The notes beneath the pieces were generated by a model. The model made no database searches and was not told where the DNA came from. It saw only the letters and a list, made by a program, of their open reading frames with translations. This document shows, in pieces, positions 5,595 through 35,319 of a stretch of DNA of 36,839 nt; position 1 is the stretch's first letter; each line of letters begins with the position of its first letter. This stretch comes from a virus. The translations under genes were made by a program, and so were the position numbers. The stretch is taken from positions 1 through 36,839 of the IMG/VR virus record IMGVR_UViG_3300043353_000017. One strand, 5' to 3'.

Positions 5595-5865
5595 TGGGCG
5601 CAAATATGGCAGACTCGCTTATGGCCGATACAGCTACGATCTTTGGTCTTCGTGGAAGCCTATTCCGCCGGAGCCACCTGTCGACATTTGGGTTCCGATA
5701 CCGGGGCTTCCCCCGGATGGTTGGGGGCCTACTTACCCCCCGTTTAGTTGCAGCGCCCCCGATGTTTGGGTCGGCGTCGGGATGGCGGCGACTAATTGGG
5801 GGTCTGCACTTTCTACCCCAACCGAAATATGGGTACCAGTTACTAAACCGGTGTTGAATGGCTGA
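5587..5865 (+). CDS. Trp/Pro-rich small tail protein
   Basis: A 92-residue protein starting at TTG, 8 bases inside the adaptor end, with an AAGGAAG site upstream. It begins with a Gly/Tyr/Arg patch (Tyr-Gly-Arg-Leu-Ala-Tyr-Gly-Arg) and then has spaced Trp-x-Pro units. I recognise this layout from small proteins placed before tail fibre genes in podoviruses. The stop overlaps the next start by 8 bases. A competing ATG-started frame over the same bases encodes an Arg-rich product that looks less like a protein. Function unknown; probably tail-associated. Confidence 0.6.
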   Translation: MADGRKYGRLAYGRYSYDLWSSWKPIPPEPPVDIWVPIPGLPPDGWGPTYPPFSCSAPDVWVGVGMAATNWGSALSTPTEIWVPVTKPVLNG

Positions 5866-7552
5866 CGAGTATACCCCAAATCTTGGGTTAACGAAGCCTG
5901 ACGTCGGCTACTCCGACGATACTTGGGGTGAGAAGCTAAACATAAATTTTGATAAGATCGACGCCGCTATTAGTGGCTCCATTACGATACCGCCCGAATA
6001 CATTACCGAATCCGAATTGCCGGAATTGGTGGACGACCGCGTTGCGGCGCTGCTGCAAGCCGGGGCTAACGTAACCATTACGTACGACGACGCCGGGAAC
6101 AAAATCACCATCGCTTCCTCGGGCGGTGGAAGTGGCGGCGGAGTTTCCGTAACGATGTCGGTTGACCCACCTGCTTCTCCAGTGGCGGGCAATTTGTGGT
6201 TCGAAAGCGACACCGGCCTTTTGTATATCTATTATGTTGATCCCACTCCGAATTCGTATTGGGTGGCGCTAACCACATTGTCGGGCGGCGGGGGCGCTCC
6301 ACCTTCGGACACCAACCCATTGATGAACGGCGTTGCTGCCCCCGGTGTTGCAACGCTTTATGCGCGGGGCGACCATGTTCATCCAAGTGATACGTCAAAA
6401 GCATCGACAGCATCTGTAGCAGCGAAAGCTGATACTACTTATGTTGATACCCAAAATGCTCTTCGGCTATTGAAAACAGCTAATCTAAGCGATGTTGCTA
6501 ATGTCGTAACATCAAGGCAGAACATCTACGCCGCACCCTTTGATGCGATGGCGTACAACGGTATGCAGATCAACGGCTCGTTCGAAGTTAGCCAGGAACT
6601 TGGGACGACGGGCGTTACTCTTACCGGGACAGGTGGTGATGTCAAGCCGTGTGATGGTTGGCATGTGGTGGCTACTGCTGCGGGCGGCATGAATGTGACA
6701 GCGGCGCAGTTAACCGGCAATGGCGGTCAGTCAGCGACCGGCTCAGACTTGCGGGTAAATCCGGTTGCCGCATTCACGGCTCCGACAAATGGCGATCAGC
6801 TATATTTACGCCAGTCGTTGGAAGGCTATCGTGTCGCGCGATTGGGGTGGGGCGCGGGCGCGGCGCAACAGTTGTCTTATGCGTTCTGGATTTTCTGTTC
6901 GGCCGCAACAGCGGTCATCGCTACGCGCATAATGAACTCCGCCGCCACCCGCGCATTTTATCTGGAGCATGCGCTGGTGGGCGGCTGGAACTACGTGACC
7001 GGAACAATTCCTGTCGGTGACACGACAGGGGTGTGGCTGAAGACCAACGGCGTCGGAATGTATTTCGACATTTTGCTGGCGGGCAAGACAGCTTCGCCTG
7101 TTGCTCCGGGTAGCTGGACTTCCACGATTGCGGTTGCCACCACGGGAATGAACAATAACGCGGTATCTATAGCAGGTCAGGTCGTCGCTCTTGCGAATTT
7201 CATTGTTCTCCCCGGCCTTGAAGCACCATCCGCCGCGCGCTCGGCGTTGATCGTACGACCTTATGATCAGGAACTGCTGACGTGCCGCCGATACTGGCAA
7301 AGCAATTTTATTGCTGTTGATGTGCTAGGAACAATTGCAAGTCAGGTAGCGACTGTATCCATAAATTACGCACCGTCGTTGCGTAGTGCGCCTAGCACAC
7401 TTGTCGGAACGGCTCTGCTTTCTTCCAACTGTGCAGCCCCGGTATTTACGGCCGTCGCTGCTACGGCAAACTATGCACCGGCAACGGTGGTCGGTACGGC
7501 TGTTGGCCGGTTCTATTGGATGGGTACAGTTGTTTCTGACGCGAGGATTTAA
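5858..7552 (+). CDS. Tail fibre protein 1
   Basis: A 564-residue protein. The N-terminus (Pro-Asn-Leu-Gly-Leu-Thr-Lys-Pro, then Trp-Gly-x-Lys-x-Asn-x-Asn-Phe-Asp) is a known virion-attachment start of phage fibres and is shared with the collar protein at 9192. A Gly-rich hinge and a Gly-Asp-His-Val-His-Pro-Ser motif follow. From about residue 190 the C-terminal domain is parallel to the next gene (Lys-Thr-Ala-Asn-Leu-Ser-Asp-Val-Ala-Asn-Val-Val; Tyr-Asp-Gln-Glu-Leu near the end) and probably binds the host surface. The ATG lies inside the previous gene, and the stop overlaps the next start (TAATG). Confidence 0.85.
   Translation: MADEYTPNLGLTKPDVGYSDDTWGEKLNINFDKIDAAISGSITIPPEYITESELPELVDDRVAALLQAGANVTITYDDAGNKITIASSGGGSGGGVSVTMSVDPPASPVAGNLWFESDTGLLYIYYVDPTPNSYWVALTTLSGGGGAPPSDTNPLMNGVAAPGVATLYARGDHVHPSDTSKASTASVAAKADTTYVDTQNALRLLKTANLSDVANVVTSRQNIYAAPFDAMAYNGMQINGSFEVSQELGTTGVTLTGTGGDVKPCDGWHVVATAAGGMNVTAAQLTGNGGQSATGSDLRVNPVAAFTAPTNGDQLYLRQSLEGYRVARLGWGAGAAQQLSYAFWIFCSAATAVIATRIMNSAATRAFYLEHALVGGWNYVTGTIPVGDTTGVWLKTNGVGMYFDILLAGKTASPVAPGSWTSTIAVATTGMNNNAVSIAGQVVALANFIVLPGLEAPSAARSALIVRPYDQELLTCRRYWQSNFIAVDVLGTIASQVATVSINYAPSLRSAPSTLVGTALLSSNCAAPVFTAVAATANYAPATVVGTAVGRFYWMGTVVSDARI
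6433..6552 (+). repeat. Diverged direct repeat between fibre genes 1 and 2 (first copy)
   Basis: These bases are closely matched by 7808-7927 in the next gene, with most differences at third codon positions. Both copies encode the same fibre segment, so this is a duplicated module kept under protein-level selection. It marks the join between the different N-terminal parts and the related C-terminal receptor-binding parts. Confidence 0.75.
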
Positions 7553-9009
7553 TGGCCGCACTTGACTTCCCACCTTCGCCTACCCCCGGAACAGTGTACG
7601 GCAAGTATACTTGGGACGGCGATAAGTGGGGTATCACGCCGACTGCGGCTGGTGGTGGTATTACTCAAGCTGATGCTGATCTTCGCTATGTGGATGTCGC
7701 TGGCGACACCATGACTGGCCACTTGACGTTGCCGACAACGCCAGCAGCGGCGAATGCGGTGCGCAAAGATTACGTTGATACAGCGCTCGCTGGCACCGTT
7801 TCTCAAAGTTACGTTGATACCCAAGATGCTCTTCGACTGTTGAAAACGGCTAATCTGAGCGACGTCGCTAACGTTGTAGCATCGCGGCAAAGCATTTACG
7901 CCGCGCCGTTTGATGCGATGAGCTACAACGGACTGCAGGTGAATGGTTGCGCTGATGTCAGTCAGGAACTAGGCTTCGCGGGATTTACTTTGACAAGTGC
8001 AAACAACGCAAATTGGGCCTGTGATGGGTGGAAGGTTGGCATCGTCCAAGGCGCGGGCGCGGTGTCGTTTACGGCCAGTCAGGGGTCTAGCGGTGGGCTG
8101 GTCGGAATGTCGAACGCTGTTGTCGCCACGATCAATAACAGCAATTTCAACTTGGCCACCAACGGAGACTGCATCTACATAAGACACCAGATCGAAGGCT
8201 ATCGGGCAGTACGTCTTGGTTGGGGTACAGCAGTCCCAAATTCACTTTCCTATGGCATGTGGTTCCTCGCGCCGATAGCCGGGACATTCGGCATTCGCGT
8301 GTTCAATCAGGCATTTAACCGCACCTACTACATTGAGCATACGGTTCCGGTTGGGTGGTCGTGGGTTTCAGGAACTATCGCTGGCGAGACCAGCGGCACG
8401 TGGGTCACCAACAATGGCGTCGGGATATACTTCGATATCCTCGTCAGCGGCAAGGACGCTGCACCAGCAGCTCCGTCCAATGGCGTGTGGTCTACGGCTG
8501 CGATAAAAACCGCCACGACGGGCATGACCAATTTGATGGGCACATCCGGCAATCAAGCGCGGGTGACTGGGCTTATTCTGGTCCCCGGCAACGAGGTGCC
8601 GTCTGCGGCGCGTGCGATGCTGATTGCGCGGCGCTACGATCAGGAACTACCGCTGTGCCAGAGGTATCTACAAAAGATCGGGTTCGGCCCTGAGATAGCA
8701 GTGGGCGACGCCATCACTGGGGTTCAACATCCCGGCATCGCCGTTACAACCACGATCATTGGCATCATTAAACAATTTGTCGTTCCGATGCGCGCTGCTC
8801 CGACTACTACGACTTTCTATCGCGGGGTCAGTGGTGCGAGCGTCGGGAAATGGTCATACTACAACGGTGTATGGATCGACGCGGCCAGCATGTCCGTTAA
8901 CACCGTCGATACCAATCAGATCGGCATAAACATGAATTTTGCGGGCGGGCTTACGGCTGGCCTTTCCTTCACCACGCAGGGTGGTGCTCTACTGGACGCG
9001 AGGCTCTGA
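7552..9009 (+). CDS. Tail fibre protein 2 (paralogue of fibre 1)
   Basis: A 485-residue protein. The N-terminus differs from fibre 1: a short Pro-rich start with Tyr-Thr-Trp-Asp-Gly-Asp-Lys-Trp, then an Asp-Ala-Asp-Leu-Arg-Tyr-Val plus Gly-Asp-Thr-Met-Thr-Gly module (about residues 42-64), a common trimeric fibre repeat. From about residue 85 to the end it parallels fibre 1, including the Asp-Gly-Trp near 160 and the Arg-Tyr-Asp-Gln-Glu-Leu near 360. It probably provides a second receptor specificity or forms a mixed fibre. Its start overlaps the stop of fibre 1. Confidence 0.85.
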   Translation: MAALDFPPSPTPGTVYGKYTWDGDKWGITPTAAGGGITQADADLRYVDVAGDTMTGHLTLPTTPAAANAVRKDYVDTALAGTVSQSYVDTQDALRLLKTANLSDVANVVASRQSIYAAPFDAMSYNGLQVNGCADVSQELGFAGFTLTSANNANWACDGWKVGIVQGAGAVSFTASQGSSGGLVGMSNAVVATINNSNFNLATNGDCIYIRHQIEGYRAVRLGWGTAVPNSLSYGMWFLAPIAGTFGIRVFNQAFNRTYYIEHTVPVGWSWVSGTIAGETSGTWVTNNGVGIYFDILVSGKDAAPAAPSNGVWSTAAIKTATTGMTNLMGTSGNQARVTGLILVPGNEVPSAARAMLIARRYDQELPLCQRYLQKIGFGPEIAVGDAITGVQHPGIAVTTTIIGIIKQFVVPMRAAPTTTTFYRGVSGASVGKWSYYNGVWIDAASMSVNTVDTNQIGINMNFAGGLTAGLSFTTQGGALLDARL

Positions 9010-16877: not shown

Positions 16878-17227
16878 GGAAACGTAATTACGCCGAGGAT
16901 TTAAAGCTAGAACTGCAATCGCAACGGCGCGATGCAGAGCGTACTTACGAAGACGAAATTATGGCAAAATACACGCCATATTCCACCTTCAACAACGTAA
17001 ATCCTGGGTTCCAAGACAGACGCGAAGAACCATGGCCTTGGCATCCAATTCAAAGAAATGAGGAGTACAAAGGGGATTACTCGGTATCACCGTCATCGGC
17101 ATCCAATATTATGCGGCCTTGGTTGAACAATCCACCAGCGCCGACGCCTATGGGCAATAGTATGGGGCTTCAAGACATCATCAAGATGTTAGAGTTACAG
17201 CGCTTAATGGGCGGCGGGGGAAATTAG
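16874..17227 (+). CDS. Last gene of the late operon, hypothetical
   Basis: A 117-residue protein. The N-terminal 35 residues are charged and helical; the middle has aromatic and Pro residues (Pro-Trp-Pro-Trp-His-Pro). The C-terminal helix ends with Met-Gly-Gly-Gly-Gly-Asn. The ATG overlaps the previous stop (ATGA). Its TAG stop shares bases with the TAA stop of the helicase on the other strand, so the late and early transcription units meet here with no terminator between. Family unknown. Confidence 0.75.
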   Translation: MRKRNYAEDLKLELQSQRRDAERTYEDEIMAKYTPYSTFNNVNPGFQDRREEPWPWHPIQRNEEYKGDYSVSPSSASNIMRPWLNNPPAPTPMGNSMGLQDIIKMLELQRLMGGGGN

Positions 17228-18612
17228 CTCTTTTTGAAGTACGAGAACACCGCTTGGGCTATGTCCTCTTTAGCTTGGAGCGCTCTCGTGACACGACGAT
17301 CCAAATCAGTGCCCCAAACATCGACATATAAACAACTGTTAGCCGTTTGCCCGTGTCGGTGGATTCTGTCTTCGATTTGGCTCCGGTCGTCAAGAGAGTA
17401 AGAATTCTCGGCAAACACCATCGTGGAGCATCTATCCAAAGCTCCTTCCCCTCCAAGAAGAGTGTGACCATACTTTCCCGCTCTGGTTTGTACCAAGATA
17501 ACCCTGCATGCATCGTCATGATTGAACCGCGTCTTGTTGAATTGAATTTCCTCCGGGGACATACCACCCTTGATCATCGCGGGGAAGTAATCCTCCAAGC
17601 TCCGCAGCAGCAAGTGTGACGTATACCGGTGAATATACGGTACAACCACCTTGCCGTCTGTCTCTTCAATAATGTCGCGGACCAAGTTGAACCGGGGGTT
17701 GTCCTCCGGGGCGACGAGTTCCTCTATCCCGCCATCTTCTTTGATGATGAATCCGGATTGTATCTGGGCTAGCTTTATGTATTTCGTGATGAACGCATCG
17801 ACAGCCACATTCTGACTTTCGTCAAGCCAAAGTACAAAATCATCTTCCATGCTCTTGTACTGTGCTGCAAGCTTAGCTGGGAGTTGGTATTGCCGCGAGG
17901 TATACATCTTCGGCGGCAGATCGGTCCAATCTTTCTTGGAGGCTCGAAATATGAATTTCTCGATCTTAGCCGCAAGTAACTCTTCATTTTGGGTGCCCAC
18001 TACCTTCTTGGCTTTGAAACCGCCCATTTTGCAGAAGGTGGTCTTGAACGGGAAGTATTTTTCGCTGATCGCTCCGATGAACTTCATTTGTGCCCAAAGG
18101 TCGTGTGGGCCTTGGGTTACGGGCTTGCCGGACAAAATGCGCTTGTACGCGAAATACTGGGCCAACGCGAGCGCGGCCTTGGTCTGCTGGCTGTTATATG
18201 TCTTGATTTGCACCGATTCGTCCAGCACAATCATCGCGTCACGACCAGCTACAAATCTTCGGATGTAATTGAACGTGTCGTCCTTACGAATCGCCTCGTA
18301 GTTTATAACGAGCACCGGAGGTTTGTCGAACTGCTCCCGGAGGAACATGTCGTTGACCCAATCGTTACCGGATTCGAACAGGTGGACGCGGAAGTTCATG
18401 TTGTGCTTTTTGATTTCATCCGCCCACCCAGCTTTGAACGAATTGGGACACACCACCACCAATCGGGTTGCTTGCTTCGCCTCCACTAGAATCTGAAATT
18501 CGGTTAACGCCGTAAGTGTCTTCCCCAGCCCCATTTCCATGTAGTAAGCGAATCCGGGACGGTCATGCGCGCTTGTTAGCGCTTTCGCTTGTACTTCCAA
18601 AAGTTGGCTCAT
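17224..18612 (-). CDS. SNF2-type superfamily II DNA helicase/translocase
   Basis: A 462-residue protein with the full helicase motif set: a Q-like start Leu-Leu-Glu-Val-Gln, Walker A Met-Gly-Leu-Gly-Lys-Thr (K31/T32), motif Ia Val-Val-Cys-Pro near 53, motif II Asp-Glu-Ser-Val at 131-134 (a variant of DEAH), motif III Leu-Ser-Gly-Lys-Pro near 160, and motif VI at 409-422 with the His-Arg-x-Gly-Gln end typical of SNF2 proteins. It couples ATP hydrolysis to movement on DNA and probably serves replication or recombination. It is the last gene of the PurZ operon. No strong Shine-Dalgarno was seen, so it may depend on coupling to the small gene that overlaps its start. Confidence 0.9.
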   Translation of the reverse strand: MSQLLEVQAKALTSAHDRPGFAYYMEMGLGKTLTALTEFQILVEAKQATRLVVVCPNSFKAGWADEIKKHNMNFRVHLFESGNDWVNDMFLREQFDKPPVLVINYEAIRKDDTFNYIRRFVAGRDAMIVLDESVQIKTYNSQQTKAALALAQYFAYKRILSGKPVTQGPHDLWAQMKFIGAISEKYFPFKTTFCKMGGFKAKKVVGTQNEELLAAKIEKFIFRASKKDWTDLPPKMYTSRQYQLPAKLAAQYKSMEDDFVLWLDESQNVAVDAFITKYIKLAQIQSGFIIKEDGGIEELVAPEDNPRFNLVRDIIEETDGKVVVPYIHRYTSHLLLRSLEDYFPAMIKGGMSPEEIQFNKTRFNHDDACRVILVQTRAGKYGHTLLGGEGALDRCSTMVFAENSYSLDDRSQIEDRIHRHGQTANSCLYVDVWGTDLDRRVTRALQAKEDIAQAVFSYFKKS

Positions 18613-18742
18613 AATGCCAGCCTGCCCTGTTCTTTCGTGCCCAAACTTCGTTGTGAATATGTTGCGTTAACCTACTTTTCCAGTCCTTTCCGTATTTCTT
18701 CTTGAACCACCGTTGATCCGATTTTCTTATTTTTATTCGCAT
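18563..18742 (-). CDS. Small basic protein overlapping two genes
   Basis: A 59-residue frame that overlaps the end of the MazZ-like gene by 71 bases and the helicase start by 50. A strong AAGGGGTGG site sits just before its ATG. The centre, with Lys-Tyr-Gly-Lys-Asp-Trp then His-Ile-His-Asn-Glu-Val-Trp-Ala-Arg-Lys (about residues 16-37), has the Trp/Tyr/His content of a real folded protein and resembles short basic phage proteins. It also fills the only gap in the operon. It is under the usual length cut-off of gene callers. Function unknown; DNA or RNA binding is plausible from the charge. Confidence 0.55.
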   Translation of the reverse strand: MRIKIRKSDQRWFKKKYGKDWKSRLTQHIHNEVWARKNRAGWHYEPTFGSTSESANKRA

Positions 18743-19034
18743 GTTCCACCCCTTGCAGCCTCAACGCGATGTAGGCCAAGAATGCGAAGTTGGCCACGTC
18801 CATCAGTTCTATCAACGTGTTTTCGTTGTTTTTATCCTCGTAGAACTGATCCTTGAATTCCTCCACTTCCCCCTGCAATAAATTTAAGATTTTGGGGATA
18901 GTGGCGATCGTCGGGGTATCCTTGTGGCTGTTCTTGTCCAGCTTTTCGATCATGCCAGCGAAGAACAAACCCAAATGGATGGTGTACTTCTCCAGCGACG
19001 GAGGGACGTCCAGTGTAATCTCGTCATTCTGCAT
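18672..19034 (-). CDS. mazZ: MazG-like nucleotide pyrophosphohydrolase (MazZ-like)
   Basis: A 120-residue all-alpha protein. The MazG metal-binding pattern is complete: E56-x-x-E59, then E76-x-x-D79 followed by Val-Ala-Asn. Single-domain MazG proteins beside PurZ (MazZ in phage S-2L) split dGTP to dGMP, the substrate PurZ needs, and can also lower dATP. The gene overlaps the end of purZ by 11 bases and has a GAGGAAG site, so the two are coupled. The symbol is inferred from the motif plus its neighbour; a general housekeeping MazG role is the alternative. Confidence 0.8.
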   Translation of the reverse strand: MQNDEITLDVPPSLEKYTIHLGLFFAGMIEKLDKNSHKDTPTIATIPKILNLLQGEVEEFKDQFYEDKNNENTLIELMDVANFAFLAYIALRLQGVEHANKNKKIGSTVVQEEIRKGLEK

Positions 19035-20076
19035 AGATTGCTTCCTCTCTTAATACGTCGCTCACTTTGGGTCCCCTCGCCACGAGGAAATCAAAGTATT
19101 TGTTCATTGTTCCCTTGGCGGCGTTTAGGTCCTCCATTAGGCTGATCTGTTGTTCGCGATCCAGATAATCCATGTGACTGACGAACACGTAGTCCGGATC
19201 GTTGGCGTAGCAAGCCTCGTAGAATTGCTCCATGGAGAATGATGCGACGCGACGTACACGGTTGGTCACCGTCGTCCTTTCTTCCGCGACCCCCAGATTT
19301 TCCCAATTAGTCTCGTGCTGGTCCGAGTACCAACCTCCAGCAGAATACCCGTCAACGTCGCCAACACGAATAGGAAAGGTACGGATTGCCATGTAAGTAC
19401 GAGATAGGTGTCTAGGAGGAATTCGCGCATCGGCTAATCCTTGCATTACGGTGCACTCGCGACTCGTAACTTTCGGATAAAACTGTGAGTTGATACCAAG
19501 GCTAAACCCCTGCGACACCTCCATGAAGTAGGCGTTGCGCTCCGGCTTAATCCGGTGGTTAAGAATAGACACATTGTGAGCAATCAGACCCAGCGAATTG
19601 CCAGCGATAGCGTTGGGATCGCGCATAATTTTACGCATCAATGCCACGCCAGTTCCGCTCCGAGTCCCCGCCACTTGAGATATCGGGCCTATTTGTTCCA
19701 TCCTCCGGTCTTCATCGGTAACAATGGCGGCGTTGGGGTGCACGAAAATCTGAAGGTTGGGGAATTTCTCCGCCTCCTTCTTCAGAATGTCGCGGTCGAT
19801 TATTGCCCCCGCCGACAGGTAAGCGGGTATGTGCAACCCGGCGCAACGCATGTACACGCTGAACACGGGGAGTTGCTTGAGCACGATCTTCTCGTCGCCG
19901 TAATAGAACGTGTGCCCGCTGTTGGGACCCCCGCTGTAAATTGCGCCGCTGAATTTGCCTGCGTGGCCGTGCTTGATGGCTATTTCGGCAAGGTAGGCGC
20001 TGAGCGCCCCCTTTCCTGTTGAGCCGAACTGGCCGTCGACGACGCAATGAACGCCGTTGTACTTGAAGAGTCCCAT
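19024..20076 (-). CDS. purZ: PurZ, N6-succino-2-amino-2'-deoxyadenylate synthase
   Basis: A 350-residue adenylosuccinate-synthetase homologue, shorter than cellular PurA (about 430). The P-loop reads Gly-Gln-Phe-Gly-Ser-Thr-Gly-Lys-Gly (15-23): Ser19 stands where PurA has its catalytic Asp (GDEGKGK). This Ser is the known mark of PurZ, which joins aspartate to dGMP using ATP or dATP. Other PurA landmarks remain: Asn-Ser-Gly-His55-Thr, Gln-Gly near 189, Arg-Thr-Phe-Pro-Ile-Arg-Val-Gly at 232-239, and Arg-Val-Arg-Arg near 273. The GTP-specific Thr-Lys-Leu-Asp of PurA is Ser-His-Met-Asp (300-303), in line with a non-GTP cofactor. Host PurB would complete dZMP formation. The start overlaps the previous stop by one base (TGATG). 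Confidence 0.93.
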   Translation of the reverse strand: MGLFKYNGVHCVVDGQFGSTGKGALSAYLAEIAIKHGHAGKFSGAIYSGGPNSGHTFYYGDEKIVLKQLPVFSVYMRCAGLHIPAYLSAGAIIDRDILKKEAEKFPNLQIFVHPNAAIVTDEDRRMEQIGPISQVAGTRSGTGVALMRKIMRDPNAIAGNSLGLIAHNVSILNHRIKPERNAYFMEVSQGFSLGINSQFYPKVTSRECTVMQGLADARIPPRHLSRTYMAIRTFPIRVGDVDGYSAGGWYSDQHETNWENLGVAEERTTVTNRVRRVASFSMEQFYEACYANDPDYVFVSHMDYLDREQQISLMEDLNAAKGTMNKYFDFLVARGPKVSDVLREEAIYAE

Positions 20077-20495
20077 CAGCGTTTTCCATCCACAGATGAG
20101 GGTTCCGACGCCTGCACCTTACCCATTTCATCATCGTTACGAATGGGCTGCACTTTGGGCGAGGCTGGTTTCTGGTATGGCGTTGGATTGGGCGTCAACA
20201 TCGACGCGAGGGCGGTGTAACCAGCCCCGTCCACGAAATTGTCCATTGAATAACCGTAGACGCCGCGCGCGATTTTGGTCATGGACATCATAACTGCGAT
20301 GTCGTGGGGCTTCAATAGCACCTCTTCGCGGCTGGAGTAAGCGTGGCCGATGTACACGCTCCACAATTCGGCGATCATCTTGAATGACCGCTCGGTGTGA
20401 CCGTGTTCCTTGAGGCGGGACCGAATGGCATCACCAGCGTCGAGCAAGGTGCCTTCGGCGATTTCCAGCGGGGTGTCGCGTAGCTTCGGATTCAT
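20076..20495 (-). CDS. DUF6378-like protein in the PurZ operon
   Basis: A 139-residue, mainly helical protein. The conserved core reads Arg-Leu-Lys-Glu-His-Gly-His-Thr-Glu-Arg-Ser-Phe near 30-41, Leu-Trp-Ser-Val-Tyr-Ile-Gly, then Lys-Pro-His-Asp-Ile-Ala-Val-Met-Met-Ser-Met-Thr-Lys-Ile-Ala-Arg and a Tyr-x-Asp/Gly-Tyr end. I match this by eye to the DUF6378 family of phage proteins, which look like MazG-type all-alpha enzymes, though their activity is not known to me. Between the nuclease and purZ, it could be a nucleotide-pool enzyme. The C-terminal 40 residues are Pro/Ser-rich and probably disordered. The ATG overlaps the nuclease stop (ATGA). Confidence 0.75.
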   Translation of the reverse strand: MNPKLRDTPLEIAEGTLLDAGDAIRSRLKEHGHTERSFKMIAELWSVYIGHAYSSREEVLLKPHDIAVMMSMTKIARGVYGYSMDNFVDGAGYTALASMLTPNPTPYQKPASPKVQPIRNDDEMGKVQASEPSSVDGKR

Positions 20496-20887
20496 GTTGT
20501 GTCTTTCTGTGAGAAATAGTAGAGGGATAGTTGCTTGTAGAACGGGACGTCGCTCGTCGTTACCGAAAAGCAATCCCTGCGGTCGATAGTCATTTTGGGT
20601 TTGTGGAAGTAGTACACCCCGTCCTTGAACCCAATAACGACGGGGATTGCGTGGCCACCATCTTCGGCGGCTAATTTGATGCGTTGCAGTTCTATCAACT
20701 GCCTTGGCGTCGGGCCAAACACGTTGTCGCGGATCATCTTAACCTCGGCCATAAACACTGGTAGCCGGGGGAGGATAAGGATCATGTCGTAGGTGCCCAC
20801 CGAATACTGGTCTTCGATGCGGCGCGCGTAACCTCCACCTTCCTGCATCGACTTGACCATGTTTCGCTTGACATCAGCCTCTTTCAT
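20492..20887 (-). CDS. PD-(D/E)XK (VRR-NUC-like) nuclease
   Basis: A 131-residue protein. The active-site outline is D34, then E48-Val-K50 after a hydrophobic strand, with Gln63 in the next helix. A Gly-Gly-Gly-Tyr stretch lies before it, and Gly-Thr-Tyr-Asp-Met-Ile comes at 31-36. This is the compact PD-(D/E)XK fold seen in phage VRR-NUC and junction-resolving nucleases. It may process replication or recombination intermediates with the SNF2 protein further down the operon. Overlaps of 14 and 4 bases join it to its neighbours. Confidence 0.8.
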   Translation of the reverse strand: MKEADVKRNMVKSMQEGGGYARRIEDQYSVGTYDMILILPRLPVFMAEVKMIRDNVFGPTPRQLIELQRIKLAAEDGGHAIPVVIGFKDGVYYFHKPKMTIDRRDCFSVTTSDVPFYKQLSLYYFSQKDTT

Positions 20888-21077
20888 TTCTAATCCGTTC
20901 TAGCGCCTCGTCGCGGGCATCTTCGATCATCCCAATAGGGCACAGCGTAGTTGCGGTCATCGGCGTTTGCCCCATGTCGAAATTATGAGCTACGCAACGA
21001 CAGGCTGTTACCGCGTAGCCCCCGCCATACATGGTTGAACTAGAGTGGAACGGATAGAACTCGAAGCGGCACTTCAT
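20874..21077 (-). CDS. Small Cys/His-containing hypothetical protein
   Basis: A 67-residue protein with four Cys and two His (Cys3, Cys26, Cys28, Cys46 and nearby His) and a C-terminal Asp/Glu/Arg helix. The spacing does not form a textbook zinc finger. It starts at an ATGA overlap with the previous gene and overlaps the nuclease start by 14 bases. Family unknown; operon membership is firm. Confidence 0.7.
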   Translation of the reverse strand: MKCRFEFYPFHSSSTMYGGGYAVTACRCVAHNFDMGQTPMTATTLCPIGMIEDARDEALERIRNERG

Positions 21078-21289
21078 TCTTTAATCCCAGACTTTTCCCA
21101 CCACCATTCGGTGACTTCGAACATTCGGTTACCGTTCTCGTCCGGTTCGCTCATTGATACGATCTGCGACTTGGGGCACCAACATTCCTTTACGCTGCCC
21201 ATCGTCGGGATAACTAGGTATGCTTTGGCTGTCGTCACTTCGATCTTAGCCTCGAAATAGAAAACGGGGTCTCCTGGTCGATATGGCAT
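21074..21289 (-). CDS. First gene of the PurZ operon, small beta-rich protein
   Basis: A 71-residue product when read from the ATG at 21289. The core pattern Lys-Ala-Tyr-Leu-Val-Ile then Trp-Cys-Pro-Lys-Ser-Gln-Ile is one I know from short phage proteins of unknown role. The start is unclear: this ATG lies inside the -10 box of the operon promoter, so the promoter's own transcript would not carry it. An AGGAG site follows, but no ATG/GTG/TTG lies at the right distance. A downstream in-frame GTG (21238) or an ATC (21244, behind a GAGG) are alternatives. Confidence 0.7.
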   Translation of the reverse strand: MPYRPGDPVFYFEAKIEVTTAKAYLVIPTMGSVKECWCPKSQIVSMSEPDENGNRMFEVTEWWWEKSGIKE

Positions 21290-21316
21290 TTTAGCATGTC
21301 CCGTGCTGGCTGTCAA
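21288..21316 (-). promoter_or_regulatory. Promoter of the PurZ operon
   Basis: On the - strand TTGACA (21316-21311), a 17-bp spacer ending in TGC, then TAAAAT (21293-21288). The -35 is perfect, the -10 is extended, and the hexamer differs from TATAAT at one position. It lies just after the PEP-CTERM terminator, so it sets the start of the PurZ operon. Confidence 0.8.
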
Positions 21317-21325
21317 GGTATATTT

Positions 21326-21357
21326 CAAAAATTGCGGCGGGGCGTGAACCCCGCCGC
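21326..21357 (-). terminator. Rho-independent terminator after the PEP-CTERM gene
   Basis: A 9-bp perfect stem GCGGCGGGG / CCCCGCCGC with a 6-base loop is followed on the - strand by AATTTTT. It begins 7 bases after the stop codon of the PEP-CTERM gene. Confidence 0.85.
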
Positions 21358-21364
21358 TTTGATG

Positions 21365-22036
21365 TTACGCCAGACGGAGCTGACGCTTGCGGCGCATGGC
21401 AAGGCCGCCAATGCCGAAGAAGCCCGCGATCATCATAGCCCACGTCGAGGCTTCCGGCACCGCCGTTACTACCGGGATCGGGGATACGTCGAGGCGGAAG
21501 TGCTCGAAGTCAGTGATGTTGCTGCCAACGCCGACGAGGAAGATGTCAATGTCGGTAATTACCTCACCATTGACAGCGGTGAAGTCGTACCCATGCGGCT
21601 TGTGGATATCCAGTTGGAATGCCGCATCAGTCAGACTACCGAAGTTGAACGTCTCAGCGGTGCCGTCAGCCTTCACCGCATCCACCCGGATGAACACGCT
21701 GCCGCTGCCGTTCAGCGAGAAGATGTCGCGTGTGGTACCAAGCTGAACGGTGTCGGTACTGTCGAAAAGGGTGATGTCGAGATCGCGCGTGTTGACGATC
21801 TTGATGTCGTTCCCACTGGTGGCACTGGCGAACGAGCCGTTGCCTGAGAGGTCGCGGAAGCGGACGATCTCGTTATTCTGGCCATTGAGGTGACCGAGAA
21901 TGAGGCTGCCGTTAACGACAGTGGTGGACGTAACGACGTTGCCGGTGCTGCCAAGTCCAGTGGTATCAAGCAAAACATCGGCCTTCGCCGCCCCCGACAA
22001 TGCAATTAAAGCGGTGGTCGCAAAAAGTAGTTTTCT
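21365..22036 (-). CDS. Secreted protein with PEP-CTERM (PEPxxWA-type) sorting signal
   Basis: A 223-residue protein. Residues 1-20 are a signal peptide (Met-Arg-Lys, hydrophobic core, Ala-Lys-Ala cleavage site). The middle is beta-rich, with Asn/Asp/Thr and no Cys, and lacks a recognised enzyme fold. The last 31 residues are a PEP-CTERM tail: Val-Pro-Glu-Ala-Ser-Thr-Trp-Ala-Met-Met (193-202), a Gly/Phe-rich membrane helix, then Arg-Arg-Lys-Arg (215-218). In bacteria such tails are processed by exosortase. The ATG has a clear AGGAG site. Hairpins flank the gene on both sides and its style is bacterial, so it looks like a cargo (moron) gene for the cell surface. The third position is Ala instead of Pro, a variant seen in this sub-family. 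Confidence 0.9.
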   Translation of the reverse strand, partial: RKLLFATTALIALSGAAKADVLLDTTGLGSTGNVVTSTTVVNGSLILGHLNGQNNEIVRFRDLSGNGSFASATSGNDIKIVNTRDLDITLFDSTDTVQLGTTRDIFSLNGSGSVFIRVDAVKADGTAETFNFGSLTDAAFQLDIHKPHGYDFTAVNGEVITDIDIFLVGVGSNITDFEHFRLDVSPIPVVTAVPEASTWAMMIAGFFGIGGLAMRRKRQLRLA

Positions 22037-22069
22037 CATAGTATTCTCCTGATCAGGGATGGTGCGGAA

Positions 22070-22108
22070 TGCACCGCGCAAGGTCAGTCGCTGGCCTTGG
22101 GCGGTGCA
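22070..22108 (-). terminator. Hairpin between the polymerase cluster and the PEP-CTERM gene
   Basis: Arms at 22070-22083 and 22095-22108 pair as TGCACCGC / GCGGTGCA plus a further AAGG/CCTT part after one mismatch. It starts one base after the stop codon of the gene at 22109. There is no U-run, so it may be a weak terminator, a processing site or an operator. Confidence 0.5.
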
Positions 22109-22749: not shown

Positions 22750-22873
22750 AGGTTTCTTTGATGTAAATGTTAACACACGGACCAAATGGCTCCCCTGTTT
22801 CGGCCATAATTTCCTTGATTCTGTCAAGGAGCCTATCAGCTTCAGCTTGCGGCATTGATTCACTATTCTTCAT
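22727..22873 (-). CDS. Short protein coupled to the DNA polymerase gene
   Basis: A 48-residue frame overlapping the polymerase end by 11 bases and the next gene by 23. It is a charged helix (Ala-Asp-Arg-Leu-Leu-Asp-Arg-Ile-Lys-Glu-Ile-Met) with a Cys-containing tail. An in-frame ATG at 22894 would lengthen it but has no Shine-Dalgarno. The overlaps support a real gene; the small size limits confidence. Confidence 0.5.
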   Translation of the reverse strand: MKNSESMPQAEADRLLDRIKEIMAETGEPFGPCVNIYIKETYGTAIEN

Positions 22874-24656
22874 ATTTGTCAAGTTTGTCTCCATAGCTGG
22901 CTTGTGCCCAATCTTTGCCGGACCCCAAACCGAAAGGAATAGGGACTGCAAGCTCGAGAAGTTCTGCCACATGTTCGATACTCCGAATTAGATCACGAAC
23001 GTCGTGTCCGGGATTACGTTGCCAGAGTAAACTGTCGTGGATAGTAAGTAGGATTTGAACATCGTCCGGGTAGGCATCTTCGTACTGACAGGCCCGGAGT
23101 AAACACATCTTGAGGTGTTCCCCTCCGCCGTTCTGAATGATTCTGGATACCGCACGGTATGCGAACCGTGGATCGTCCAAATAAGCTCTGCGCCCAAGTA
23201 GGGTCTTGACATAGCCGCGCCGCTTGAATACATGAACTGCCGTGTCCTGAAAGGTCTTGATGTGGGGGAAAGCGTCGGTGAGGAACGCGCGGTGCGCGTC
23301 ACGCGCTCGCTCGATGGGCCACCTCATGTGCCCCGCCAGCGTCGGCGGGGACATCATGGTGAGCATCCCCATCCCCAGCCGCTTTGCGGTATCGCGGTCT
23401 AGCCCTAGGACTTCTGACGCTCTATCGTGGATGTCCATTGTTCCACTACGGTATCCGTCGACGAGAGCAGGGTCACCCGAATAGTGAGTGAAGAGTCTAG
23501 GCTCTTGTTGCTTCGCGTCCGCTTCTTCGATAACAAACCCGTCGTCAGGGACGACAAGGCGTCTAACAACTCTTCCAACGTCAATGTTCCGTTTGGGGAA
23601 AGCTTGCAGATTAGGTTCGCTACACGAGAATCTGACACCGGCAACTCCGTAGTCGTCTGACTTGGATTGGTTGAGAACGGGGTGGACTCGTCCATTGACA
23701 TTGTGTGTGTCAATAAGGGGTGCGATAAAGCTATCCCGTGCCTTTTCGAGCCGTCTAACTGCAAGGATGGCTCCTCCGATTTCATTTGTTTCGAGCCACT
23801 TTTCTGTGAAGGAGAACGCCCCTCCAGCGGTACGGGAAAACTCGGTATCTGTGAAGCCATTTGAGCGATAGAGAGCCTCAACGGCTTTTGGCGACCGGAC
23901 GTTGAAGCCGGGGACAAAGACTTTAGATTTTTCCGCGATGGCTTCTTCAATTTCGCCTCCTACTCTTCCTGCGTATTCGCTGTCGATTTTAAGTCCTCGG
24001 GCGTGAATTCGTGCGACGTAGGGTAGCAAGTCGCATTCCAGCTGCCAAGGTTTCCGAAGTTCGTCAGCATCAAGGATTCTCTGTTGGGCGGCCCATAGTT
24101 CCAGCGTCGATATACCGTCACCTGTGGCATAATCAACGACGAGGGGGTGGTCTCCTTCAAGTCTCCAGAACTTTCCCATTTGCTTTCGGTCTGGGAGTCC
24201 CCCGAATCGTCGGGCGAGTTCGGCATAGAGCAAGTCCCCTTTCTTTGGTGTCACCTTGCGCCGTAAGCATGATTCGTCGAGGCTGTATCCTTGGGTGATG
24301 TCGCTGATGATCGCCTCGTTGATCATCGTGTCTTCCAGCGGACCCAACAGTTCTATACCATGCCGTAGACAAATACGTAAATCGAAGCCAAGATTATGAC
24401 CAACAGTCCGAAATAGAAGACGGCTGCGATCTCTAAAAGCACTAGCGAGAGCGCGCTCGAAGTCTTCTGCATTTGGGATATTGCCACCTCCTTCGTGGCG
24501 AACCGGGACATATATCGAATACTCCTCATTGGTAATGACGTAACCGCAGATCTTATCATGAACAGTCAATCCTGTTGTTTCGGTATCGAAAGCTATAGGT
24601 TTATAATGGCACCGCACCAAGTCGAGCGCGAGTTCCGGATTAATACATTGCTTCAT
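22863..24656 (-). CDS. Family A DNA polymerase with 3'-5' exonuclease (DpoZ-like candidate)
   Basis: A 597-residue protein. Exonuclease motifs are complete: D24/E26 (exo I), His-Asn-x-x-Phe-Asp92 (exo II), Tyr176-x3-Asp180 (exo III). Polymerase motif A keeps D380 and E385; motif B keeps R421 and K425 but the O-helix positions that are Asn-Phe-Gly...Tyr-Gly in Pol I are Gly428-Met429-Gly430...Thr433-Met434. Motif C is His540-Asp541-Ser542, with Ser for the usual Glu. No 5' nuclease domain is present. It replicates the phage genome. Given purZ nearby it may be a DpoZ-type enzyme favouring dZTP, but that is inference. Confidence 0.92.
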   Translation of the reverse strand: MKQCINPELALDLVRCHYKPIAFDTETTGLTVHDKICGYVITNEEYSIYVPVRHEGGGNIPNAEDFERALASAFRDRSRLLFRTVGHNLGFDLRICLRHGIELLGPLEDTMINEAIISDITQGYSLDESCLRRKVTPKKGDLLYAELARRFGGLPDRKQMGKFWRLEGDHPLVVDYATGDGISTLELWAAQQRILDADELRKPWQLECDLLPYVARIHARGLKIDSEYAGRVGGEIEEAIAEKSKVFVPGFNVRSPKAVEALYRSNGFTDTEFSRTAGGAFSFTEKWLETNEIGGAILAVRRLEKARDSFIAPLIDTHNVNGRVHPVLNQSKSDDYGVAGVRFSCSEPNLQAFPKRNIDVGRVVRRLVVPDDGFVIEEADAKQQEPRLFTHYSGDPALVDGYRSGTMDIHDRASEVLGLDRDTAKRLGMGMLTMMSPPTLAGHMRWPIERARDAHRAFLTDAFPHIKTFQDTAVHVFKRRGYVKTLLGRRAYLDDPRFAYRAVSRIIQNGGGEHLKMCLLRACQYEDAYPDDVQILLTIHDSLLWQRNPGHDVRDLIRSIEHVAELLELAVPIPFGLGSGKDWAQASYGDKLDKYEE

Positions 24657-26668: not shown

Positions 26669-27097
26669 TTAGGCAGCGGCAGGTTCAGCTTGACTACCTG
26701 TGGAGGTCGCTTCCTGAGCCGCCTTGGCCGCACCCGTAAGGGCTGGCTTCGGCAGGTCGATGGCAACTTCACTTCCGTCGAGGCCGGTGGCCTTGCCGTT
26801 TTTGCGCACGATGGTCGCCAGCATGTTGCGTAGCGTCATTCGTGCACGTCCTTCGGCACCGTGGCGCTTTTCACCAACCTGTGCCTTGTAGTGGTCGACC
26901 TTCTCCTGCGGAACGCCATTGCTGGCGGTCAGTTCAAAGAACTTGTCGAAGCTGAAGTTACCCTCAACGACGCACTGTTCCTTGATGAACTTGGCGAGCG
27001 GATCTTCGCCGCCGTTCTTGTACCGGCCACTGTACTTGGACGGCACGATCGACTTCGTCTTTTTCACTTCCTCGGTCGCCTGCACTTCGTCAGTCAT
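26669..27097 (-). CDS. Paralogue 3 of the GR-x-RMT domain family
   Basis: A 142-residue protein with a disordered charged start and an Ala/Pro-rich end. Its core has Asp32, Cys42, Phe48, Ser-Asn-Gly-Val at 59-62 and Gly-Ala-Glu-Gly-Arg-Ala-Arg-Met-Thr-Leu-Arg-Asn at 80-91, followed by an Asn-Gly turn. The same pattern occurs in the products of 30507-31031 and 34600-35319. It has its own promoter and a strong AGAGGTGA site and could be abundant. I infer a small helical, possibly DNA-binding domain; no function is known to me. Confidence 0.75.
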   Translation of the reverse strand: MTDEVQATEEVKKTKSIVPSKYSGRYKNGGEDPLAKFIKEQCVVEGNFSFDKFFELTASNGVPQEKVDHYKAQVGEKRHGAEGRARMTLRNMLATIVRKNGKATGLDGSEVAIDLPKPALTGAAKAAQEATSTGSQAEPAAA

Positions 27098-30165: not shown

Positions 30166-30510
30166 CTAGTGAGATCGGATATTCTCACGGTTTAGTTCCA
30201 AGTCGTGGATCAACTCATCGCGCATCGAAACCATGAACTCACCGAGCCACACTTCGATGGGTGCTTTGCTGCCGTCATCTTCTCTGCCCGACATTCGGCT
30301 GGCCATTTCCATGATCATCAAGCTGATCAAATTCACCAGCGTATTGCGAGCCAAGTCGGGGTGGACCTTACTGGATTGTGCATCGTTGATCCAATGCATG
30401 TATGGCCGAAATATGGCGTCCAGCGAATCTACGGACACCGATTCGGCACCCTGATCCTTCATGATAACCATGAGCGAATCTACGTATTGAGTTACATCTT
30501 CGTCTGTCAT
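30166..30510 (-). CDS. Helical hypothetical protein
   Basis: A 114-residue, all-helical acidic protein (Met-rich helix near 64-73; Glu-Val-Trp-Leu-Gly-Glu-Phe near 86-92). The ATG overlaps the previous stop (ATGA). No domain is recognised. Co-expression with the RMF-like gene upstream is certain from the overlap. Confidence 0.75.
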   Translation of the reverse strand: MTDEDVTQYVDSLMVIMKDQGAESVSVDSLDAIFRPYMHWINDAQSSKVHPDLARNTLVNLISLMIMEMASRMSGREDDGSKAPIEVWLGEFMVSMRDELIHDLELNRENIRSH

Positions 30511-31031
30511 GCATGCTCCGTTTTCGGTTTGTATTTGTTTGCGGTGGTGGTAATCCAGTCGTAGTCCAATTGGTAGTCGTCGCCCATCCCTTCTGGCATA
30601 ATCAGCTTGCCGTTGTTAGCCAAGACGCGCTTGGCGAGTAAGTTCCGTCCCGTCATTCGTAGCCGACCCTGCCAACCCTTGTTCGTGCGGTTGTACTTGG
30701 ACAGATCGACTCCGTTCGCCGCGCAGATTGCCTCGAATATCTCGAGGTTCGTGCCCGCCTTGTTGACGCACACCGAATTGAGGAGGAGGGCAAGTGCGTC
30801 CCCGCAGTGGGTTGCGTGTCCCGACTCCGAATACAGGGCACGATACCGGTTTGTCACCACCGACCCTACTCTGGGCTTTGGGTGCTCTTCGTTGTAATCG
30901 GCTGCGGCGTCCCATTCGTCGTTCCACCTACCGAACTCAGGGTCTTGATCCAAATAAGGGCAGTCCCCTGCGAACCAGCCCTCTTTGTACGCTATTGCAC
31001 CGTCTGCTGGTATTCCGTTGATTCTATCCAT
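30507..31031 (-). CDS. RMF-like N-terminus fused to GR-x-RMT domain (paralogue 2)
   Basis: A 174-residue protein. Residues 14-45 match the ribosome modulation factor outline: Ala-Tyr-Lys-Glu-Gly-Trp-Phe-Ala-Gly, Cys-Pro-Tyr (24-26), then Trp...Trp-Asp-Ala. RMF inactivates host ribosomes by pairing them in E. coli. Residues 78-145 carry the family domain: Cys88, Ala-Asn-Gly-Val-Asp at 105-109, Gly-Trp-Gln-Gly-Arg-Leu-Arg-Met-Thr-Gly-Arg-Asn at 119-130. A promoter and GGGAG site lie directly upstream. An effect on host ribosomes is possible but rests on a short motif. Confidence 0.75.
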   Translation of the reverse strand: MDRINGIPADGAIAYKEGWFAGDCPYLDQDPEFGRWNDEWDAAADYNEEHPKPRVGSVVTNRYRALYSESGHATHCGDALALLLNSVCVNKAGTNLEIFEAICAANGVDLSKYNRTNKGWQGRLRMTGRNLLAKRVLANNGKLIMPEGMGDDYQLDYDWITTTANKYKPKTEHA

Positions 31032-34518: not shown

Positions 34519-34547
34519 TTGACAGCACGCTGTCGTTGTGTTACAGT
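34519..34547 (+). promoter_or_regulatory. Divergent + strand promoter
   Basis: TTGACA (34519-34524), 17-bp spacer ending in TGT, then TACAGT (34542-34547). It drives the only + strand gene of the early region. The short shared gap between the two promoters is a natural place for a common regulator. Confidence 0.8.
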
Positions 34548-34599
34548 ACGGTTGGTCAGTCGACCAAGGCGCAACGCGCATAGCGAATGGAGAAGACAG

Positions 34600-35319
34600 A
34601 TGGCTAAGAGAGCACGCAAGCAGACCGAGGCGGAACGCGCAGCAGTTGATTCGGAGCGCGAATTGGCGCGCGAACATTCGGGTTACGACATGCCGACAGG
34701 CGCATTCGACCTGAACGAATCGATCGGTTCGGCGCAGGGCATTTCGAGCGGCGGCGAGCGCGAAGAATCGACGCAAGAGGCGATCGTCGGGCCAAACGTC
34801 ACCGTCGGTGAGTTCATCGATACGACGATAGAAGAGGCCGAGGAACGCGAACCCACCGAAGAGGATCACGAAATCGCGCGCGAAATCTACCAAGAGATGA
34901 ACGCCCCGCTGGACGCCGAAGTAGAGGAAGAATCCGCCGAAGAGGAGCCGAAGGAGAGCATCTCGGTGGTGAGGGACAAGTTCAAGGTGAAGTACATCGA
35001 GAACGCGCGGGCGCTGGGTGTTCCGGGCAAGGCAGCCAAGAGATCGAATTGGGACTGGCTGTCGCAGCAGCTTGCCACGTTCTGCCTGAATGATAAGCAC
35101 AGCATAGACATCGGAGCGTTTACGGACGTGCTGGATGCGAATGGGGTGGATCATTCGCGCTGGACCAACCGAAATCGGGGATGGGAAGGTCGGTTCCGCA
35201 TGACGGGCCGTGTCGCGCTGCAGAAGGTAGTGGCGAACGCGGGCGAAATCAAGTGGCCGAATGGCGAGCCGACCGCTGCCCCGGCTGAATTCATCGAAAA
35301 GTACAAGACCAAGGCGTAA
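34600..35319 (+). CDS. Divergent early protein with GR-x-RMT domain (paralogue 1)
   Basis: A 239-residue protein. The first 120 residues are charged and probably disordered, with a very acidic stretch (about 80-118). The C-terminal domain (150-220) has Cys162, Ala-Asn-Gly-Val-Asp at 180-184 and Gly-Trp-Glu-Gly-Arg-Phe-Arg-Met-Thr-Gly-Arg at 194-204, matching two other genes here. It has its own promoter and a strong terminator, so it is a one-gene unit. Codon use is very even (GCG/CGC-rich), suggesting high expression. A structural DNA-binding or regulatory role is inferred from number of copies and expression signs only. Confidence 0.8.
   Translation: MAKRARKQTEAERAAVDSERELAREHSGYDMPTGAFDLNESIGSAQGISSGGEREESTQEAIVGPNVTVGEFIDTTIEEAEEREPTEEDHEIAREIYQEMNAPLDAEVEEESAEEEPKESISVVRDKFKVKYIENARALGVPGKAAKRSNWDWLSQQLATFCLNDKHSIDIGAFTDVLDANGVDHSRWTNRNRGWEGRFRMTGRVALQKVVANAGEIKWPNGEPTAAPAEFIEKYKTKA

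Follow-up and report, generated by a model that had tools for sequence, protein, structure and literature searches.

The stretch of DNA analysed here, hereafter the window, corresponds to one virus record of a soil phage in IMG/VR (IMGVR_UViG_3300043353_000017; 36,839 nucleotides (nt)), and it carries on its minus strand an operon around a gene for PurZ, an enzyme associated with genomes in which 2-aminoadenine (Z) takes the place of adenine. The operon proposed by the first-pass annotation, which was made from the sequence alone, was recovered as a run of an 84-amino-acid (aa) open reading frame (ORF), a 67-aa ORF, a small nuclease, a DUF6378 protein, PurZ, a MazG-like pyrophosphohydrolase and an SNF2-family helicase (Table 1). 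The genes had been described as an overlapping chain, and five junctions do overlap, by 4, 14, 4, 1 and 11 nt, but a 59-nt gap precedes the helicase gene. The promoter assigned to the operon was also found; although the count of promoter-like sites in the operon region is at chance level, the hexamers of this one are identical in 17 of 23 relatives and nearly identical in an 18th. The true start of the 84-aa ORF is uncertain because the -10 box overlaps its first ATG (21289), and the start of the DUF6378 gene is most likely 20495, ATGA-coupled to the nuclease stop, rather than the TTG at 20573.

Table 1. Features of the PurZ operon and its surroundings in the window (NTP, nucleoside triphosphate)
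Feature	Position	Strand	Remark
Family A DNA polymerase with 3'-5' exonuclease domain	22863..24656	-	helix O F762->M, Y766->T
Intrinsic-terminator-like hairpin, strong	21334..21357	-	10 pairs (9 GC) and a T tail; immediately precedes the operon promoter
Sigma-70-type promoter	21288..21316	-	TTGACA-17-TAAAAT, TG extension; recurs in relatives
84-aa ORF (phrog_8389)	21074..21328	-	homologue of OH p29
67-aa ORF	20874..21077	-	found in only some relatives
Small nuclease	20492..20887	-	weak phrog_93 endonuclease match; OH p30 'putative nuclease'
DUF6378 protein (PF19905, 3.7e-18)	20076..20495	-	predicted four-helix bundle
PurZ	19024..20076	-	Ser19 (dGMP type); S300-H301-x-D303 NTP-base pocket, PurA/PurZ0-like Asp
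MazZ-2-type MazG-like pyrophosphohydrolase	18672..19034	-	conserved acids E56, E59, E76, D79
SNF2-family helicase (PF00176, 3.5e-24)	17224..18612	-	directly after MazZ, no DatZ between

A family A DNA polymerase gene, which the first-pass annotation did not mention, is located some 2.8 kb upstream of purZ. The order polymerase, 84-aa ORF, nuclease, DUF6378, PurZ, MazG-like protein and SNF2 helicase holds throughout the lineage with occasional detection gaps, and MazZ-2, DUF6378, the nuclease, the helicase and the polymerase accompany PurZ in more than 60 related IMG/VR loci and in the nearest named phage, Ochrobactrum phage vB_OspP_OH (Wolominvirus, 41,227 bp; hereafter OH). Note that the loci sampled were the best IMG/VR matches and thus non-random, and that the majority are partial contigs. 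The proposed adaptation of the nuclease and helicase to Z-DNA found no support and was dropped; neither gene carries a Z-specific signal, and the helicase matches the phage DNA helicase family phrog_62.

The window covers about 83% of a genome, judged by a 44,426-bp relative (G001) with a 69-bp direct terminal repeat. Positions 118-37240 of G001 align to it with a DNA identity of roughly 70-98% by block, and about 7 kb carrying the portal and terminase genes in G001 are missing from the window. Identities with OH are 72% for the capsid, 62% for the polymerase and 53% for PurZ, and podovirus morphology of OH was observed by electron microscopy (PMC7139368).

The replacement of the catalytic Asp of PurA (Asp13) by Ser19, as first annotated, was confirmed, with Ser in all 260 aligned rows. 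The best solved relative of the protein is phiVC8 PurZ (4e-42), and it matches PHROG 1211 at 1e-51 and the NCBIfam PurZ model NF038379 at 1.2e-60, versus 4e-37 for the best PurA model. The dGMP-pocket residues of S-2L PurZ are N49, T132, Q190, R240 and V241 (PMC8342488); their counterparts N52, T138, Q189, R237 and V238 are invariant in this lineage, V238 corresponding to the Val that excludes the 2'-OH. Phylogenetic analysis, one of the checks proposed with the annotation, placed the window protein within phage PurZ and not within PurA or PurZ0. By its Ser, its dGMP pocket and its grouping, the sequence is that of a PurZ, for which we do not claim the ATP-using subtype.

The pocket for the base of the NTP differs from that of known PurZ. 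The protein had been annotated as lacking the GTP-specificity motif of PurA, but this was wrong: in its stretch F-V-S-H-M-D, Asp303 occupies the position of the Asp in PurA (T-L-L-D) and in HunterDalle PurZ0 (T-M-L-D), a residue missing in ATP-type PurZ. In PurA, the Asp at this position reads guanine (E. coli Asp333). The pocket of S-2L PurZ consists of N305, F306 and Q308, with N297 in phiVC8, and the amide at S-2L 308 has been described as clashing with a 2-amino group (PMC8342488). Among distinct PurZ sequences, all 35 of the window clade have (S/T)HxD, 122 others have N-(F/Y)-x-(N/Q) and one has NFMD; the window itself has S-H-M-D and not the adenine-type N-F-x-N/Q. When these 35 were compared with 38 sister PurZ, the residues of the two sets scarcely overlapped in only four columns, and three of these were 300, 301 and 303. 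These pocket residues contradict an ATP-type reading of the window PurZ.

In a tree without the pocket columns, the window clade was still nested in PurZ, and a single clade of SHxD sequences with PurZ0/PurA was rejected (approximately unbiased (AU) test, p-AU 0.006). These two results indicate that a guanine-type pocket was regained, apparently once, inside the ATP-type PurZ clade. The SHxD set together with one NFMN row had support of 96/90 (ultrafast bootstrap (UFBoot)/Shimodaira-Hasegawa-like approximate likelihood ratio test (SH-aLRT)). The exchange of the adenine-reading N-F-x-N/Q for a guanine-reading S-H-x-D makes GTP the likely phosphate donor of the window-clade PurZ.

The second departure, unmentioned in the first-pass annotation, is the absence of DatZ, the HD-domain dATPase that removes dATP in the standard Z-cluster. 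The mazZ gene has been described as always lying between datZ and purZ (PMC8342488). Hidden Markov models built from known and newly found DatZ did not find DatZ in the window. Among loci with at least 1.5 kb downstream, DatZ was present in 94 of 107 NFxN loci versus 6 of 27 SHxD loci. A search of whole contigs found it in 17 of 40, and nowhere in the window-clade contigs G001, G003, G005, G006, G011 and G020 (42-45 kb) or in G027, G033, G034, G037 and G039, which have the ATP-type pocket. Terminal repeats are present in the DatZ-less G001, G003 and G006, and nearly so in G005. In loci that have DatZ, it lies between MazZ-2 and SNF2; in DatZ-less loci these two genes are close together or separated by a small or HNH-like ORF, most SHxD loci having no gene in DatZ's place. 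The HNH endonuclease-like ORFs at this place are L007 11488-11856, L074 7490-7897 and L110 7282-7620. No DutZ, DmtZ or DUF5664-like replacement was detected in the window or in four relatives, and no nucleotide-metabolism domain was found in 20 further ORFs of the window. Parsimony over the PurZ tree required at least 10 changes in DatZ, five of them inside the window clade. DatZ most likely helps but is dispensable in this lineage, from which it has been lost repeatedly. We also observed two PurZ phages with neither DatZ nor DUF6378 detected (L108, a 45-kb contig, and L119, 21 kb), in which PurZ, a MazZ-2-like gene and the polymerase remain.

These patterns bear on the alternative that the window comes from an ordinary Z phage with an ATP-using PurZ, in which S-H-x-D is a neutral or structural variant and the loss of DatZ is incidental. 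The nesting of the window PurZ among ATP-type PurZ and the patchiness of DatZ in both pocket types are consistent with it. However, across 35 divergent sequences the H and D never change although the residue separating them does, the columns that differ most sharply from the sister PurZ are those of known base-contact residues, and an Asp beside adenine N1 would be expected to be unfavourable from the S-2L and PurA structures. We regard this alternative as unlikely, though it deserves serious attention.

The MazG-like protein is identified as MazZ-2 from its sequence and predicted structure: its homology is of the OH type, E56 and E59 are invariant and E76 and D79 are conserved in at least 90% of sequences, as expected for metal-binding acids, and the model is confident (predicted local distance difference test (pLDDT) 84.7), with 2p06 and the MazG-related 2yxh as best Foldseek matches at weak E-values. 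The DUF6378 protein, detected in 35 of 35 distinct SHxD loci and in most of the OH lineage, is predicted to be a four-helix bundle (pLDDT 85). Its constant presence in SHxD loci and its occurrence in the DatZ-bearing OH lineage raise the idea that it is a replacement dATP hydrolase that permitted the loss of DatZ, and in Burkholderia phage Bm1 a DUF6378-like protein is encoded two genes downstream of DatZ. This role is improbable, however: its model gave no fold match among solved structures (PDB), it has no profile similarity to MazZ-2 or MazG-type enzymes, it is also common in other phages, and it was not detected in the DatZ-less L108 and L119.

The best match of the window polymerase was the NCBIfam DpoZ model at 243 bits, far under its 500-bit cut-off. 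The phiVC8-type insertions 2 and 3 are not present, and motif B has M/T where DpoZ-2 has L455/F459. In trees, the OH and window polymerases formed one group (60 rows, SH-aLRT 100) apart from DpoZ-2 (100); monophyly of the two groups had a support of 46 in one tree and was unresolved in another. Two polymerases from PurZ-less contigs fall in or beside the window/OH group. In helix O, all 60 OH/window polymerases have M or L (Q once) at the Phe762 position and T or S at the Tyr766 position, where the DpoZ-2 core has L and F. Among the matches listed in an independent scan that started from the polymerase itself, four of four relatives with Thr at the Tyr766 position were on PurZ contigs, and 74 with Tyr were not. 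One OH/window-group polymerase, on the 41-kb contig L285 (8001-9746), has Asn at the Tyr766 position; this contig has a DUF6378 gene and no PurZ, and it may represent a phage that lost the Z pathway.

The properties of the polymerase are relevant to the possibility that the lack of DatZ leaves both A and Z in the phage DNA. In S-2L, whose polymerase is unspecific, the Z content is due to DatZ (PMC8065100, PMC8342488), and in this lineage it has been lost repeatedly. On the other hand, phiVC8 DpoZ shows that a polymerase itself can discriminate about 30-fold (mid-points 449 vs 15.6 uM, PMC8599892), and the window polymerase carries a proofreading domain. Partial substitution is thus a rather doubtful explanation.

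Compared with OH, the window has the same order of polA, p29, nuclease, DUF6378, PurZ, MazZ-2 and helicase and homologous capsid and tail genes, whereas in OH the MazZ-2 and helicase genes are separated by DatZ and p34 and the pocket is of the ATP type (NFMN); the window has neither DatZ nor such a pocket. OH has been mentioned among the MazZ-2 phages (Czernecki 2021, PMC8342488). The window shares adjacent PurZ and MazZ, the catalytic Ser and the dGMP-pocket residues with the Z-cluster of S-2L and phiVC8 (purZ-mazZ-datZ), but differs in having no DatZ, S-H-x-D for N-F-x-N/Q and a polymerase that is not DpoZ-2. With the PurZ0 systems of the actinobacteriophages Wayne, Ghobes and HunterDalle it shares the Asp at the guanine-reading position and the lack of DatZ, but its PurZ falls outside the PurZ0 clade (AU p 0.006) and no relative of DutZ, DmtZ or DUF5664 was found. 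The Alteromonas podovirus ZP6 (Mareflavirus) likewise has PurZ, a MazG-like enzyme and a family A polymerase (PMC8515928), but it retains DatZ, its pocket is NFCN and its polymerase is a DpoZ-2. The combination of a guanine-type pocket, no DatZ and a non-DpoZ-2 polymerase was undescribed in the literature searched (PMC8342488, PMC12884076, PMC8599892).

Homology and synteny lend good support to the annotated idea of a Z genome in a podovirus-like phage, and the podovirus OH has the same operon with DatZ in addition; since phiVC8, ZP6 (PMC8515928) and OH are already podoviral Z phages, it is not new as such. In the reading we prefer, the window would be most of the genome of a virulent podovirus-type phage that makes Z DNA. 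MazZ-2 would convert dGTP to dGMP, PurZ would join dGMP and aspartate into N6-succino-2-aminodeoxyadenylate with GTP as the probable donor, host enzymes would complete dZTP, and the phage polymerase would insert it, preferring Z to A, possibly helped by its proofreading domain. Because DatZ has been lost repeatedly, the exclusion of A would rest on the polymerase, with its altered helix O and proofreading, and possibly on dATP being a substrate of MazZ-2 or DUF6378. We give this reading, a Z-genome phage with a probably GTP-using PurZ, exclusion of A by such means and a dispensable DatZ, a probability of about 0.62.

Several points weigh against it. The PurZ score, 205 bits, is under the curated cut-off of 300 for NF038379, and support for the monophyly of SHxD sequences is moderate when the pocket columns are left out (UFBoot 64, SH-aLRT 91). 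Asp303 could serve something other than GTP, for example dGTP or a tighter contact to the N6-amino group. Six SHxD loci retain DatZ, and therefore the link between pocket type and loss of DatZ is not strict; the ATP-type pocket also occurs in some DatZ-less phages. The Z-specificity of the window/OH polymerase group is putative. The sequences themselves show the identity and order of the genes, the pocket exchange, the lack of DatZ and the separate polymerase group, and from them we infer the enzyme activities, the use of GTP and the presence of Z in virion DNA. That the enzyme reverted towards PurA and makes adenylosuccinate, the genome not being Z, would fit the restored Asp in the NTP pocket, the missing DatZ and the score under the curated PurZ cut-off, but it is very improbable given the unchanged Ser at the catalytic position and dGMP-pocket residues, the retained MazZ-2 and PurZ-linked polymerase, and the rejected grouping with PurA/PurZ0.

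More tentatively, and at somewhat short of even odds, the window type may be a further solution to Z replication, beside PurZ/DatZ/DpoZ-2 and PurZ0/DutZ/DpoZ-1: a GTP-driven PurZ re-evolved in an ATP-using clade, no dATPase, and a separately adapted, self-sufficient A-excluding polymerase (Tyr766 to Thr). The lineage breaks the published picture twice, in the fixed position of mazZ through its repeated loss of DatZ, and in the evolutionary succession from GTP-using PurA/PurZ0 to ATP-using PurZ through the return of the guanine-reading Asp. With it one can test what difference the donor base makes and whether a selective polymerase is enough to keep a genome adenine-free, and its polymerase group, with Thr where nearly all sampled non-Z relatives have Tyr, is a new candidate for studying and engineering Z-selective DNA synthesis.

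No relative of the window-clade PurZ was found among the 84,980 bacterial and archaeal genomes searched, and therefore there is neither a prophage nor direct evidence of the host. A 238-aa protein that weakly matches the PEPxxWA-CTERM sorting signal (NF035944) is encoded between the polymerase gene and the PurZ operon (21365-22081, minus strand); it is highly variable among relatives and an unusual gene for a lytic phage to carry. Certain alphaproteobacteria typically have signals of this kind, and the protein hints at an alphaproteobacterial host. Three paralogue-like ORFs of the window share a motif like G(W)xGRxRMTxRNxL...NG (26669-27097 and 30507-31031, minus strand; 34519-35319, plus strand), the first of which is related to OH p23. 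Tandem tail-fibre-like genes (5858-7552 and 7552-9009, plus strand) have similar middle parts, and nowhere else do the window and G001 differ as much as in this region. Finally, in phage 023Pt_psg01 (L276 2424-3015), the gene immediately after a family A polymerase gene is annotated as phosphoribosylaminoimidazole synthetase, an enzyme of purine synthesis.

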